A stretch of 64,000 nt of DNA, from contig RDXB01000033.1 in the NCBI GenBank assembly GCA_004292515.1, positions 1-64,000 on the forward strand, in the 5' to 3' direction. The stretch's first letter is position 1; every line of letters starts with the position of its first letter. Below, piece by piece: positions 3,539-11,039 of the stretch. Position numbers and translations under genes: made by a program. The notes below the pieces were generated by a model. The model had not been told where the DNA came from, did no database searches, and worked only from the letters and a program-made list of their open reading frames with translations. The DNA is from Oscillatoriales cyanobacterium. GTDB lineage: Bacteria > Cyanobacteriota > Cyanobacteriia > CACIAM-69d.

Positions 3539-3594
3539 AATCAATCCAGACCAATCAATCCAGACCAATCAATCCAGACCAATCAATCTAGACC
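3539..3594 (+). repeat. 14-bp tandem repeat, four units
   Basis: Four head-to-tail copies of AATCAATCCAGACC, the last with one change (TCTAGACC). Together with the 15-bp array at 3805-3909 it lies just upstream of the nuclease-ParA/ParB-like genes and may form part of an iteron-type partition or regulatory site. Confidence 0.85.
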
Positions 3595-3804
3595 AATCAA
3601 CTCAGCCTCAATCTGTTTGGGACAACTGCACGGGAGCCTGATCTGCACAGGTGTCAGAGCGGGTTGCAGGCTCGATACACAGCCCCACTTTGTCTAGTCC
3701 AGACCGAGGTGGCATCGACCAATAGATCAAGCGCCAATAGATCAAGCACCAAGAGATGGGATACCAAGGCACACCGTACTGATTCATCGGGTTCTCGCAC
3801 AGCC

Positions 3805-3909
3805 AATGTTGTCAGTTCAAATGTTGTCAGTTCAAATATTTTCAATTCAGATGATATCAATTCAGATGATATCAATTCAGATGTTGTCAGTTCAAATGTT
3901 GTCAATTCA
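3805..3909 (+). repeat. 15-bp tandem repeat, seven units (iteron-like)
   Basis: Seven contiguous units matching RATRWTNTCARTTCA, for example AATGTTGTCAGTTCA and GATGATATCAATTCA. The unit is a multiple of three, so the array is open in the frame of the downstream ParA gene and would read as Ser/Asn/Asp/Val repeats. Such arrays upstream of parA serve as centromeres in several partition systems; that role here is inference. Two looser CCAATAGATCAAGCR units lie at about 3718-3750. Confidence 0.85.
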
Positions 3910-3939
3910 ATAGATGCAGCACCAATAGATTGGGTTCCG

Positions 3940-5448
3940 ATGAATCGGAACCTAATTGATGCAGCAATCAGCAATCTCTATCTCTTTAGATCTATGATGG
4001 CTCCCGAGGATTTTTACCGCCAGTGGGTTGCGCTCCTCAAACAAGTGGAACAATGCCAAACCGAGAAAGATCTCGAAGATCAGGTGATTGTCCCACTCTT
4101 GCAATTATTGGGTTATGAGTCCGCAAATATTGCTCAACAGGTTCCCTTTGGCCGCCATCGAGTGGACTTTTTAGTCAAGGCCCAACAGCGTGGACCCCAC
4201 ATCCACTACTTGGTTATTGAAGCCAAAGCACCTAGTAAATCGATCGCACATAATAGTTGGCAATTGCGACAATATCTGCGCGATTCTGGCAGTTTGTTGG
4301 GACTGCTGACCAATGGCAACCAGTTCAAGCTGTTGTATAACGATGGCAATGTGATCCACACCCTTTGGCAGTTCAATCGGGCAGAACTGCTGGAGGATTA
4401 TCGCCTGTTAGGATCATTGCTGTGGCGGCACAATTGCGATCGAGTCATGGCCATTTTTCATGACAGCTATCGCCGTGTCCAACAGCGGTTTGTACAAGCG
4501 ATCGCCCGCCTATCCCATGATCCAAAGGTAATGACTCTGCTTTCGATCGATGATCAACATCAGCTCGCTGTAGACAATCAACGCAAAAAATCGATGATTA
4601 TTACTGTTTTCAACAACAAAGGCGGCGTGGGCAAAACCACACTGACAATCAACCTAGCCGCCGCCCTCAGTCAACTGGGCAAGCGCGTTTTGCTAGTAGA
4701 CATTGACGCACAGGCCAACCTCACCACTGGTCTTGGCATCGATCCCCTAGAAGATATTGAAAAACAAGGACTCAAAGATATTACGCATTTGCTGACGGAA
4801 CCCAAAACTACAGCCAAGTCCGTCACCTTGAGCAAGCGTTGGGGCAATGTGGTGCTGGATATTATTCCGGCCCATATTCGCCTCAGCAATATGGAAAACC
4901 AACTGATTCAGCTTGTGGATAGCGATCGGATCCTGGCCAAAAAGCTGAAAAACCATGACTATGATTTTGTGTTGATTGATCCGCCGCCTTCTTTTGGTAA
5001 GGTCAACCGCATTTCGCTAATGGCATCCGCTGGTATTTTGATTCCGACACAGCTTTCGCCCTATCCAATTCGCGCTTTGGAATATGTTCTCACCCAAGTA
5101 GAAGAGGTCGGGCAATTTCGCGAAACACCGTTACCCGTAGTCGGCATTGCAGTCAGTATGCATGACAAGGCTGCGCGGGTTTTCAACCAATCGATGGTTG
5201 ACGAAATCCATCACCAGCTATCTCGAATTCCAGGGGGCGATCGCGTCTCATTGTTCTCTGACAAAACCTGGATTCCTCGCCTCAATGTTTTGTCGAAATC
5301 TCAAGATAAAGGCTATCCTTTATGCGCCGCTGATTTTGATGATGATCTCAACAGTCAAGATCGCGACTCTGTTGAAAAAGCCACCTATGCGTTTGAATCC
5401 CTAGCCCGGGAGTTTCTGAGTACCGTCGGATTTGCAGTGGAAGCCTAA
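3940..5448 (+). CDS. HsdR-N-like nuclease domain fused to ParA ATPase
   Basis: Two modules in one chain (residues numbered from the longest open frame, which begins at 3664). Residues 115-230 resemble the N-terminal nuclease domain of type I restriction HsdR: Asp168 in RHRVDFLV and Glu186-x-Lys188 in LVIEAKAP match the PD-(D/E)XK core, followed by QLRQYLRD and LTNGNQFKLL. Residues 311-590 are a ParA/MinD ATPase with deviant Walker A KGGVGKTT (319-326), Walker A' DIDAQ (346-350) and Walker B FVLIDPPPS (435-443). The start is placed at ATG 3940 because the preceding 92 codons are tandem repeats and low-complexity sequence; ATG 3994 or 3997 are alternatives. The stop is followed after 3 bases by a ParB-like gene. 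Likely role: DNA-bound ATPase with nuclease activity, either a segregation device or a defence system. The coupling of the two activities is unknown. Confidence 0.85.
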   Translation: MNRNLIDAAISNLYLFRSMMAPEDFYRQWVALLKQVEQCQTEKDLEDQVIVPLLQLLGYESANIAQQVPFGRHRVDFLVKAQQRGPHIHYLVIEAKAPSKSIAHNSWQLRQYLRDSGSLLGLLTNGNQFKLLYNDGNVIHTLWQFNRAELLEDYRLLGSLLWRHNCDRVMAIFHDSYRRVQQRFVQAIARLSHDPKVMTLLSIDDQHQLAVDNQRKKSMIITVFNNKGGVGKTTLTINLAAALSQLGKRVLLVDIDAQANLTTGLGIDPLEDIEKQGLKDITHLLTEPKTTAKSVTLSKRWGNVVLDIIPAHIRLSNMENQLIQLVDSDRILAKKLKNHDYDFVLIDPPPSFGKVNRISLMASAGILIPTQLSPYPIRALEYVLTQVEEVGQFRETPLPVVGIAVSMHDKAARVFNQSMVDEIHHQLSRIPGGDRVSLFSDKTWIPRLNVLSKSQDKGYPLCAADFDDDLNSQDRDSVEKATYAFESLAREFLSTVGFAVEA

Positions 5449-5451
5449 GCC

Positions 5452-6378
5452 ATGAGTGATTATCAAGAGCGCCGTCAGCGGATTCGTGACAACCTGAAAA
5501 TTCAGTCAGTCAGCCACGGTCAAGTCCATACCTGTTTGATTGGGATGGCTGAAATTCCACAAATTTCTGATGATCGCCGCAATGAATTAGCCTGGAGTTT
5601 GCAAAATCATCAAGGCAATTTAATTCCGATTGTGGTGCGACGCAATGATCGCTTGGGAGCTGACCTGGAATATGAGGTGATTTATGGGGCAGAGTGGGTG
5701 GTGGTTGCTGATGCATTGGGCATTGAAATGCTCTGGGCTTGGGTCTTTGATCTCAATGATGATGAAGTCGCGGCAACTCGCGAGGAGCTGACCATTCTGT
5801 TAGATGCTCCGACGGGTGGTCGCTCATTGCCTAATCAGGGTGTTGAACATAATCAGGGTGTTGAACAATCGATTCCTGTGGCATCGTTGAATGTGTCGCG
5901 TGATGAGTTGGTGCAACTGTTTGATGAACGGCTCGATCGCTATTTAACTCGCCAAGAAACCCTATCACCGGCCGCCCCTGCACTGGAGTCGGTCAATCAC
6001 AATCACTCAGAAATAGCCCATCAATTGCAAGCACTGACCCAAAAGGTCGAGCAATTGAGCGACCAAATGAGTCAGCCAGCAAAATCTACAGGTAGCTCGA
6101 TCGAGTCTATGCAAAAAGTGCTCGAAAGCTTGGAGCGATCGGCCTCAGCTTTTGGTCGAGTAATCGTTCCTGGAACAACAATTACGGTTACAGTTAAAAT
6201 TCCTGCTGACACCAATCCAAATAAGCCCTTACTCACCCGCGATGAGTCCGAAAAGCTCTATAAATCAATGACGGTTGATCGACTTCAGGAGATTGCTCAA
6301 CAACAGGAGATTGAACTCCCTGCTAGAGCCAAAAAAGCTGCCATTGTTGAGTGCTTAGTTGCGGCTCAATATGGGTGA
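5452..6378 (+). CDS. ParB-like protein with divergent CTP motif and SAP/Rho-N-like tail
   Basis: 308 residues starting 3 bases after the ParA fusion, so the two are almost certainly co-transcribed. Residues 30-110 follow the ParB N-terminal pattern (IPQISDDRRNELAWSL, then LIPIVVRRND). Where ParB has GERRxRA, this protein has GAEWVVVADALG (79-90), so the arginines used for CTP binding are absent. There is no recognisable KorB-type helix-turn-helix. Instead there is a predicted coiled coil (about 185-235) and a C-terminal VDRLQEIAQQQEIELPARAK segment (275-294) like SAP or Rho-N DNA-binding modules. An in-frame 18-bp duplication gives NQGVEH/NQGVEQ at 128-139. Inferred: DNA-binding partner or adaptor of the upstream ATPase. 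Confidence 0.75.
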   Translation: MSDYQERRQRIRDNLKIQSVSHGQVHTCLIGMAEIPQISDDRRNELAWSLQNHQGNLIPIVVRRNDRLGADLEYEVIYGAEWVVVADALGIEMLWAWVFDLNDDEVAATREELTILLDAPTGGRSLPNQGVEHNQGVEQSIPVASLNVSRDELVQLFDERLDRYLTRQETLSPAAPALESVNHNHSEIAHQLQALTQKVEQLSDQMSQPAKSTGSSIESMQKVLESLERSASAFGRVIVPGTTITVTVKIPADTNPNKPLLTRDESEKLYKSMTVDRLQEIAQQQEIELPARAKKAAIVECLVAAQYG

Positions 6379-6441
6379 TCTTGATGGGTAATTTTGCACC
6401 AGTTATTCCCCAGTTATCCCATCGTTTCTCTGGCCAGCATG

Positions 6442-6473
6442 GGAATGATCAGTATCCCATTTAGGAATGATCA
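6442..6473. promoter_or_regulatory. Candidate operator: direct repeat GGAATGATCA spaced by 22 bp
   Basis: GGAATGATCA occurs at 6442-6451 and again at 6464-6473, a start-to-start distance of 22 bp or about two helical turns. It lies just upstream of the small gene at 6514. Each copy contains the palindrome TGATCA. Function is inferred from spacing only. Confidence 0.3.
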
Positions 6474-6513
6474 AACAATCCACAGCCTCGCTCAACAAAT
6501 TTTGGTATGACTC

Positions 6514-6750
6514 GTGAAGCTCAACACTGATCGCGCCACCGAAGCAGGATTCAAAGAGCGCGTTGCCAACGTTCGCAATCTATTCTGTGCCGAGGGAGGC
6601 GAATGGACAGTCGATCGCGCCGCCAGCCGATTCAGCAGCAAAAGCACCAAAGCCAAAAGACAACAAATTACCCAGGCGATCGCAGCCCTTGAAGGTGCGG
6701 GCCTGCTGCTGTCCCACACCAACAATGGCGAGCAATATTGGCAACATTGA
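6514..6750 (+). CDS. Small possible winged-helix protein of the par/nuclease unit
   Basis: 78 residues beginning at a GTG, 135 bp after the ParB-like gene on the same strand. The sequence (EWTVDRAASRFSSKSTKAKR, then ITQAIAALEGAGLLL) reads like a small winged-helix: an HTH followed by a helix that ends before a short hairpin. No Shine-Dalgarno sequence stands out, so the start is uncertain. It could be a repressor of the operon, a DNA-binding subunit, or an unrelated small protein. No family was recognised. Confidence 0.5.
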   Translation: MKLNTDRATEAGFKERVANVRNLFCAEGGEWTVDRAASRFSSKSTKAKRQQITQAIAALEGAGLLLSHTNNGEQYWQH

Positions 6751-8140: not shown

Positions 8141-8420
8141 GGCAACAATCACCGGAGAAGGACAGCCAAACCCGGCCAGCCCAGCCGAGCGCCCAGGCCA
8201 CCCGGCAGGATCGATCGCTTGGGTCTTGATCCTAGCGAACCGGCCCAGCTCCTAGCGATCGCACCGGCCGCAACCCCCAGCGTCCACCCGGACGGCAAAT
8301 CCCCCTGGTCACAGTCGTAAAACCCGACCGTGCGCGATCGACCTCCCTGCCTACAATAATCGCTACAGCCGTGCAGTCGGGGTGCTTGCCCTGTTGGTGA
8401 TTCCTGCCGGCTTGAGTCCT

Positions 8421-11039
8421 ATGCAACCCACCGATCCCAATAAATTCACAACTAAGGCTTGGGAAGCAATCGCCCAGTTGCCAGATATTGCCAAACAAAA
8501 TCGCCAACAACAACTCGAATCAGAGCATTTACTAAAAGCTTTATTAGAGCAAGAAGGACTCACCAGCAGTGTTTTGACCAAGGCAGGCAGCCAGCCCAGT
8601 CGCCTCCGCGATTTAGTGGATGCATTCCTGAACAAACAACCGAAGATTTCTGGAGAGATTGGCTCAGTTTATCTGGGTCAAAGTTTAGATAAACTGCTTG
8701 ACCGGGCTGATGCCTATCGCAAAGAACTAGGAGACGACTATCTCTCGATCGAGCATCTCATTTTTGGGTTTGCCAAGGACGATCGCTGCGGTCGCAAACT
8801 GTTCGATCAAGTGGGTCTCAATGAAAGCAAACTCCGCACCGCGATTCAGCAAGTACGAGGCAACCAAACCGTGACCGATCGTGATCCCGAAGGTAAGTAT
8901 GAAGCCCTCGAAAAATATGGCCGCGACCTGACCCAATATGCCCGCCAAGGGAAGCTCGATCCGGTGATTGGGCGGGATGATGAAATTCGCCGCACGATTC
9001 AAATTTTGTCGCGCCGCACAAAAAATAACCCGGTGTTAATTGGTGAACCGGGCGTGGGCAAAACGGCGATCGCAGAAGGTTTGGCCCAACGGATTGTCAA
9101 AGGGGATGTGCCCGAATCCTTGCAAAATCGCACCCTAATTGCCCTCGATATGGGGGCACTGATTGCGGGAGCCAAATATCGCGGGGAATTTGAAGAACGC
9201 CTAAAAGCAGTGCTGAAAGAAGTCACCGATTCGGAGGGAAATATTATTCTCTTCATCGATGAAATTCACACAGTAGTGGGAGCCGGAGCCACCCAAGGGG
9301 CAATGGATGCGGGCAATTTGCTAAAGCCAATGTTGGCTCGGGGTGAGTTGCGCTGCATTGGGGCCACAACCCTCGATGAGTACCGCAAATATATCGAGAA
9401 AGATGCGGCCCTAGAACGACGCTTCCAACAGGTTTATATTGATCAGCCGTCGGTGGTAGACACGATTTCGATTTTGCGCGGGCTGAAGGATCGCTACGAA
9501 ACCCACCACAACGTGAAGATTTCTGATAATGCGTTGGTGGCGGCGGCGACGCTGTCCAATCGTTATATTAGCGATCGCTTTTTGCCTGACAAGGCGATCG
9601 ACTTGGTGGACGAGGCGGCGGCTAAACTAAAAATGGAAGTCACTTCCAAGCCGGAAGAACTGGACGAAACCGATCGCAAGATTTTGCAACTGGAAATGGA
9701 GCGCCTTTCGCTGCACCGGGAGAGTGATTCGGCTTCTAAGGAGCGGCTGGAACGGCTCGATCGGGAATTGGCTGATCTGAAAGAAACCCAAAGCCACCTG
9801 AATGCCCAATGGCAACAGGAAAAAGACCTGCTCGATCGTCGCAAGGAAATTAAAGAACAGATTGATCGGGTAGAGCTAGAAATCCAGCAAGCCGAGCGGG
9901 ATTATGACCTGAACAAAGCGGCAGAGTTGAAGTTTGGCAAACTGAACGAGTTGCAACAACAATTACTGGAGATTGATCGCACAATCACCACCCAGCAGGC
10001 TAGCGGTCAAATCCTGTTGCGGGAAGAAGTCAGTGAGTCGGACATTGCCGAAATTATTGCCAAATGGACGGGAATTCCAGTTAGCAAGTTGATTGCTTCC
10101 GAAATGGAAAAGCTGTTGCATTTGGAAGATGAATTGCATCAGCGGGTGATTGGTCAAAATGAGGCGGTGACGGCGGTGGCCGATGCCATCCAGCGATCGC
10201 GCGCAGGCTTGGCCGATCCGAACCGCCCGATCGCTAGCTTCATTTTCCTGGGGCCAACGGGTGTGGGCAAAACCGAACTCGCCAAATCCCTGGCGGCCTA
10301 TCTGTTCGACACCGAAGAAGCAATGGTGCGAATTGATATGTCTGAATACATGGAAAAACACGCCGTTTCGCGGTTGGTGGGTGCGCCTCCTGGCTATGTG
10401 GGCTACGAAGAAGGCGGCCAACTGACCGAAGCAATTCGCCGTCGTCCTTACTCGGTGATTCTGTTTGATGAAATCGAAAAGGCGCACCCTGATGTTTTTA
10501 ATGTGATGCTGCAAATCCTCGATGATGGGCGCGTCACGGACTCCCAAGGGCGCACGGTGGATTTCAAAAACAGCATCATTATCCTCACCAGCAACATTGG
10601 TTCCCAATACATTTTGGATGTGGCGGGGGATAACAGTCGCTATGAGGAAATGCGATCGCGCGTGATGACGGCTATGCGCGAAAGTTTCCGCCCGGAATTT
10701 CTGAATCGGATCGACGACTGGATTATTTTCCACAGCCTCGAAAAATCCGAGCTACGGCAAATTATCCAGATCCAAGCCCAGCGCCTAGAAGCTCGCCTCA
10801 TCGACAAGAAAATGACCCTGAAGCTATCAGAAAAGGCGATCGACTTTTTGGCCGAAGTGGGCTATGACCCCACCTATGGTGCGCGGCCGCTGAAGCGGGC
10901 AGTCCAGCGGGAATTGGAAACCCAAATTGCGAAGTGTATCTTGCGGGGCGAATTCACCGAAGGGGATACGATTTGGGTCGATATCGAAAACGAGCGGCTG
11001 GCTTTTAAACGGTTAACCGCTGAGTTGGTGGCTCGCTAG
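8421..11039 (+). CDS. clpB: ATP-dependent disaggregase ClpB
   Basis: 872 residues from ATG 8421. This start is chosen because [17 protein letters not shown] matches the usual ClpB N-terminus; in-frame codons upstream to 8382 are unlikely. Order: N-domain (1-145), first AAA+ module with Walker A GEPGVGKT (208-215), the coiled-coil middle domain that marks ClpB rather than ClpA/C (about 405-535), second AAA+ module with GPTGVGKT, and a C-terminus with [15 protein letters not shown]. It rescues aggregated proteins with DnaK. Cyanobacteria usually have two copies, one heat inducible and one not; which this is cannot be told. Its TAG stop is the probable left end of a MITE-like element. Confidence 0.96.

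Follow-up and report, generated by a model that had tools for sequence, protein, structure and literature searches.

Cyanobacteria are polyploid, and to our knowledge no characterised system couples DNA positioning to DNA cutting through a nuclease joined to a ParA ATPase. Cyanobacteria have also been reported to lack classical ParABS (PMC7766704). In the canonical system, a Soj-like ParA with a deviant Walker A motif is encoded in an operon next to a partner of the ParB/sulfiredoxin (Srx) fold. The locus described here has the same arrangement; it differs in that its ParA carries a nuclease and its partner has no GERRxRA CTP box and no parS-binding helix-turn-helix (HTH), but a coiled coil and a HeH, SAP, Rho_N or helix-hairpin-helix (HHH) end, and no parS was found. 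The ParATS system of plasmid SCP2 is plasmid-borne, CTP-independent and without a nuclease, and its ParT lacks any CTPase-type fold while keeping a ParB-like DNA-binding middle domain (PMC12260392). It provides a precedent for CTP-independent partition by a ParA and a partner that apparently does not use CTP, as here, whereas the present partner keeps the ParB/Srx fold, has no HTH and is accompanied by a nuclease. ParB/Srx-fold proteins are also found in conflict systems, namely GmrSD, DndB and Osa (PMC12839542, PMC10853773); there, ParB-fold proteins work together with a nuclease or are one themselves, which makes them comparable to the present locus, but they are enzymes without a nuclease-ParA partner. 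A 2025 survey of ParB-fold domain fusions described a consistent parA neighbourhood only for the DUF3850 fusion, and HsdR went unmentioned. The N-terminal domain of the type I restriction protein HsdR shares with the locus the nuclease family, the D..ExK motif and an invariant Tyr of the QxxxY region; here, SF2 translocase, HsdM and HsdS are absent and the nuclease is joined to ParA. McdB is not a ParB-fold protein, and McdAB, which acts on carboxysomes, has no nuclease. McdAB and other ParA cargo-positioning systems (PMC6328274, PMC10241942) resemble the locus in that cyanobacteria encode the ParA on the chromosome together with a small partner.

The window analysed here is a stretch of 64,000 nucleotides from an Oscillatoriales cyanobacterium (contig RDXB01000033.1), and the locus is a two-gene operon within it (Table 1). 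A reading made from the sequence alone (hereafter, the sequence-only reading) had proposed that one gene joins an HsdR-N-type PD-(D/E)XK domain to a complete ParA. Pfam analysis of the full-length fusion gave AAA_31 at E=2e-43 and HSDR_N_2 at E=1.7e-4 (2.3e-5 with the nuclease domain alone), and both HSDR_N_2 and HSDR_N were matched by 34/34 scanned relatives (best HSDR_N_2 E value, 7.3e-10), indicating that the fusion of an HsdR_N-type nuclease to a Soj-like ParA is real. Only these two domains were seen in the polypeptide by Pfam and in the AlphaFold model, and an SF2 helicase/translocase was absent. A search of the open-access literature yielded no account of a nuclease-ParA fusion, in agreement with the earlier statement that no characterised system of exactly this architecture was known to its author. 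The start codon was assigned to ATG 3994 or 3997, the position to which the first residue of relatives (at 76% identity) aligns. The TTG start at 3664, from which the earlier long-frame numbering was derived, was rejected on the same grounds, and the proposed catalytic residues Asp168, Glu186 and Lys188 are D58, E76 and K78 counted from ATG 3994. With this start, the 15-bp repeats at 3805-3910 are non-coding and lie upstream of the gene.

Table 1. Features of the nuclease-ParA operon and its surroundings (positions in the window).
Feature	Position	Strand	Basis or remark
Nuclease-ParA fusion CDS (HsdR_N type), 484 aa	3994..5448	+	Pfam, relatives' starts, 37-member alignment, AlphaFold model
PD-(D/E)XK (HSDR_N-type) nuclease domain, residues ~12-150	4027..4443	+	Pfam in relatives, conserved residues, predicted strand-strand-helix order
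ParA/Soj-like ATPase domain, residues ~200-475	4591..5418	+	AAA_31, Foldseek, VIA-align
Walker A KGGVGKTT of fusion	4618-4641	+	deviant Walker A motif
Catalytic codons of fusion	D58 GAC 4165-4167; E76 GAA 4219-4221; K78 AAA 4225-4227	+	checked on DNA
Y94 codon in nuclease domain	4273-4275	+	
ParB/sulfiredoxin-fold partner, 308 aa	5452..6378	+	Pfam, Foldseek, adjacency to fusions
Partner N domain, residues ~1-118	5452-5805	+	
Partner C-terminal HeH/Rho_N-like module, residues 271-303	6262-6360	+	
78-aa ORF	6514-6750		truncated C-terminal end of ~1,170-aa methyltransferase-like protein
Three tandem arrays, 14-15 bp units	3539-3600, 3718-3757, 3805-3910		just upstream of fusion
Near-perfect inverted repeat	3929-3956		ATTGGGTTCCGAT / ATCGGAACCTAAT; ~40 bp before start codon

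The AlphaFold model of the fusion, built from the 37-member alignment, had a mean pLDDT of 86.8 and showed a flexible linker (~187-196) between the nuclease domain and ParA. D58 is predicted to lie within one strand and E76 to end the next, with K78 just beyond; the helix that comes after contains Y94. This order fits the PD-(D/E)XK fold. The ParA part resembled Soj/ParA closely (Foldseek E=7e-19; VIA-align Z 34, rmsd 1.8, 251 aligned residues). The matches listed from fold searches with the whole model were taken up by ParA proteins, and a PDB sequence search with the nuclease profile gave a designed repeat protein as best match, with weak scores for the restriction enzymes BpuSI and 3h1t. 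The nuclease fold is thus assigned from profiles and secondary-structure order and not from a structural match.

Conservation analysis showed that D58, E76 and K78, together with E24, Y41, Y94 and G103, were identical in 57/57 aligned rows (53 distinct loci), the conservation that the sequence-only reading had named, for its three catalytic residues, as support; at the Q position of QxxxY, R and K also occur. No variation was seen among 37/37 aligned members in the deviant Walker A KGGVGKTT or in the A' and B aspartates, consistent with the complete ParA proposed earlier. Omega of the nuclease domain was ~0.07-0.25 in close pairs and similar for ParA: the domain is under purifying selection and not in decay. 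A few copies were split or frameshifted (L041, L055, L076 and L247). In type Ia plasmid ParAs, an N-terminal HTH serves as the DNA-binding domain, and the nuclease fold, standing at the same position, might likewise only bind DNA while ParA positions DNA or other cargo without any cutting. The existence of ParA-ParB pairs without the nuclease domain is in keeping with this, but D58, E76, K78 and Y94 are kept in 57 rows down to ~27% overall identity, which is hard to account for without catalysis, and we regard a DNA-binding-only role as improbable.

The ParB-like gene begins 3 bp after the fusion stop, as originally noticed. Its product was matched by ParB_N (E=1.3e-3), HeH (5.2e-5) and Rho_N (1.5e-3), its predicted model resembled Noc/ParB N-domains (Foldseek E 2.8e-5), and 26/34 partner relatives matched ParB_N (E<=0.05). 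The linkage held at 52/53 fusions, each with a ParB-like gene directly downstream (exception, L040). The GERRxRA CTP box was kept in 0/34 partners, where a GADW- or GHxEYY-type sequence was found instead, and the ParB HTH of the parS-binding type was not among the top Pfam families of the 34. In the predicted model, a coiled coil links the N and C domains. The C-terminal end was HeH, SAP, Rho_N or helix-hairpin-helix-like among relatives, and the module is exchangeable. The exceptional L040 is a clade-A fusion of genome G011 without an adjoining ParB; a nuclease-less clade-B ParA-ParB pair (L242) is located elsewhere in that genome, and the two perhaps work in trans. An additional ParB-like gene of clade-A type (L067:44-1147) was observed at another locus, where it follows a clade-B operon at a distance of ~3 kb.

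A search with the nuclease-domain profile found the fusion family in 64/386 cyanobacterial genomes (E<=3.1e-37, followed by a gap in E values to about 1e-13). There was one copy per genome, located on megabase contigs of the main chromosome wherever assemblies allowed judging. The operon was core in a first genus (12/12 species), and the fusion was present in 29/30 species of a second genus (25/25 of those with good genomes, including Lyngbya sp. CCAP 1446/10) and in only 2/16 of a third. The accessory setting suggested earlier was not upheld: the operon is chromosomal, has a single copy and belongs to the core of two genera, and defence genes are no more common among its neighbours than in random regions of the same genomes. 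Matches in plasmid and phage collections were to ParA only, none reaching a coverage of 80% of the fusion, and IMG/VR gave matches to the ParA region and none spanning nuclease and ParA; a plasmid or phage origin was rejected on this basis. Beyond cyanobacteria, the breadth is represented here by two MAGs, assigned to Beggiatoa and Desulfobacteraceae, that carry the fusion with its partner through either transfer or mis-binning.

An alternative is a non-canonical system for partition or positioning of the chromosome in polyploid cyanobacteria. The ParB-like protein would label a centromere-like site that ParA would move or space, and the nuclease would be an accessory for trimming or resolving DNA that is entangled or in surplus. 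The chromosomal location, the single copy per genome, the core status in two genera, the nearness of the fusion ParA to chromosomal Soj folds and the dispensability of the nuclease in some relatives all speak for it, as do the reported lack of classical ParABS in cyanobacteria (PMC7766704) and the finding of no canonical ParB in the window's genome. Several fusion genomes also hold canonical ParB, by which a strict replacement of canonical ParB by the operon was rejected. The restriction of the fusion to 64/386 genomes, and to 2/16 in one genus, counts against a partition system, as do the partner's lack of the ParB HTH and CTP box and the surroundings of the operon, in which neither a conserved array of repeats nor a conserved site was found. 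We consider it somewhat doubtful.

Comparison of the upstream regions of relatives revealed no conserved repeat array or target site near the operon, and no conserved block or palindrome was seen beyond the coding start. The closest relatives share none of the tandem arrays upstream of the fusion. One relative has an array of its own, but in a locus rich in repeats; a centromere in the 15-bp repeats is accordingly unlikely. The inverted repeat before the start codon is a possible operator. The 78-aa ORF exists as described in the sequence-only reading, where it was taken for a small, possible wHTH gene after the ParB-like gene, but it was rejected as a third component, since it is a methyltransferase-like remnant missing from related operons; a related second copy is found on contig C44 of the same genome (75% identical). 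PADLOC 2023 models gave only weak or ParA-generic matches to the operon proteins. In a coarse count, 42 PADLOC families were found from 130 fusion neighbours vs 81 from 123 control genes taken from random regions of the same genomes, which gives no support to a defence-island association. No modification gene (HsdM/HsdS) recurred among the neighbours, where the ParB-like gene was the sole recurrent partner.

The tree of the fusion family showed two deep clades, with the window in clade A (14 rows, support 99/99) and most other members in clade B. ParAs without the nuclease, accompanied by their ParB, were nested in clade B (L238, L239, L241, L242 and L243; partial in L244), a pattern that reads as repeated loss of the nuclease; the rows L076 and L247, entered as stand-alone ParA, are split genes with the nuclease alongside. 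The persistence of nuclease-less pairs in several genomes implies that the ParA-ParB core has a function without cutting. In genome G121 (L041:1274-4474), a DUF559-like nuclease and an SF1 helicase extend across two consecutive ORFs: the first carries the nuclease domain with the first half of the helicase, and the second joins its second half to a clade-B ParA. This helicase-ParA has its own ParB-like gene behind it, and its immediate neighbour is a clade-A fusion operon with a frameshift. At 15/53 fusion loci, drawn from both clades and from several families, the operon is adjoined by another, distinct ParA gene (~294 aa), mostly divergent (for example, L065:4584-5468 and L045:7026-7910); the window has none. 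In genome G019, a nuclease-less ParA duplicate (L245:6565-7443) is located directly upstream of a complete fusion. The clade-B ParA-ParB pair L243 of genome G247 adjoins clpB, and the clade-A operon of the window is 2 kb from clpB (8382-11039); this may be coincidence. That the fusion arose when domains met by chance in a single genome, and is a remnant or a neutral passenger having no joint function, is scarcely credible: the few split or frameshifted copies fit such a view, but it is contradicted by conservation, namely the spread over 64/386 genomes and two deep clades, the low omega and the conserved partner.

Polymorphism was compared with one genome per species. In the 12-species genus, the nuclease was 94-98% identical, and the nuclease, Walker A region and ParA C-terminus were 90-98% identical in all pairs, whereas the ParA middle (fusion nucleotides ~690-1060) fell into three types (7, 4 and 1 genomes) that are 72-75% alike. 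The ParB N domain formed the same three groups (60-72% alike), and its distances correlated with those of the ParA middle (Mantel r=0.98, p=0.0002) while other segment pairs gave r<=0.45. A conserved stretch lies between the two segments, so their agreement is not due to one uninterrupted divergent tract. The ParB C-end grouped independently of the N types, giving six N/C combinations. The dS was ~1.0 in the ParA middle and ParB N domain vs 0.11-0.14 in the nuclease, Walker A region and ParA C-end, and the three types were about as distant from one another as from other families, which points to old or imported alleles; we hypothesize that balancing selection acts on them. The second genus had no discrete types, and its ParB C-end was the least conserved part (median identity 0.57), with a dN of 0.29 vs 0.03-0.09 elsewhere at equal dS (omega 0.52). 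Discrete types were thus confined to one genus, and at the scale of the whole family a partial Mantel test did not mark out the ParA middle as the partner of the ParB N domain. The recognition modules change at a far higher rate than a chromosomal ParB would be expected to show, a further point against the partition alternative.

Taken together, the operon may be a two-gene chromosomal machine in which a nuclease is gated by ParA and guided by the ParB-like protein on a ParA-ParB chassis, a reading we favour tentatively. The C-terminal HeH/SAP/Rho_N or helix-hairpin-helix module of the ParB-like protein would select DNA, and its N domain would dock on the ParA middle; docking would switch the ATP-dependent ParA dimer, and the switched dimer would pair two nuclease domains on the selected DNA, licensing cutting. 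Such a reader-adaptor-cutter scheme would explain the motif conservation, the near-obligate partner, the nuclease-less and alternative architectures, and the module polymorphism. The guided-nuclease reading draws support from the catalytic D/E/K in 57/57 rows, the low nuclease omega, the partner in 52/53 loci, the matching ParA-middle and ParB N types, the differing ParB C-modules across the family, and the joining in G121 of the same ParA type to a DUF559-like nuclease-SF1 helicase. It is weakened by the lack of a detected target site, the persistence of nuclease-less pairs, the confinement of types to one genus, and the family-wide test that did not single out the ParA middle.

As to the biological role, the sequence-only reading had offered either a segregation device with a nuclease checkpoint or a defence system; the evidence points in both directions, and each is still plausible. 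Discrimination between DNAs, in a restriction-like or anti-mobile-element conflict, is a possibility that we slightly prefer over maintenance. It is favoured by the diversification of reader modules while the cutter is conserved, and disfavoured by a single-copy core status in two genera that is unusual for defence and by the absence of PADLOC enrichment. Maintenance or partition of the polyploid chromosome is possible but less probable; the core single-copy status and the nuclease-less relatives favour such a role for the ParA-ParB core, as do the missing defence-island signal and a window genome without canonical ParB. It is conceivable, if rather uncertain, that the operon represents a novel class of nuclease that discriminates between DNAs: a ParB-like reader, whose target modules can be exchanged, would recruit a cutter-bearing ParA, and allelic specificities would be maintained within a genus. 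If true, this class would be a restriction-like system built from the chromosome-segregation toolkit. A chromosomal ParA-ParB pair so widespread, and core in two genera, is a direct candidate for the handling of chromosome copies in polyploid cyanobacteria. With a nuclease on ParA, the positioning and the cutting of DNA would be coupled and, if the variable recognition modules reflect conflict, the family would represent a new mode of self/non-self DNA discrimination.
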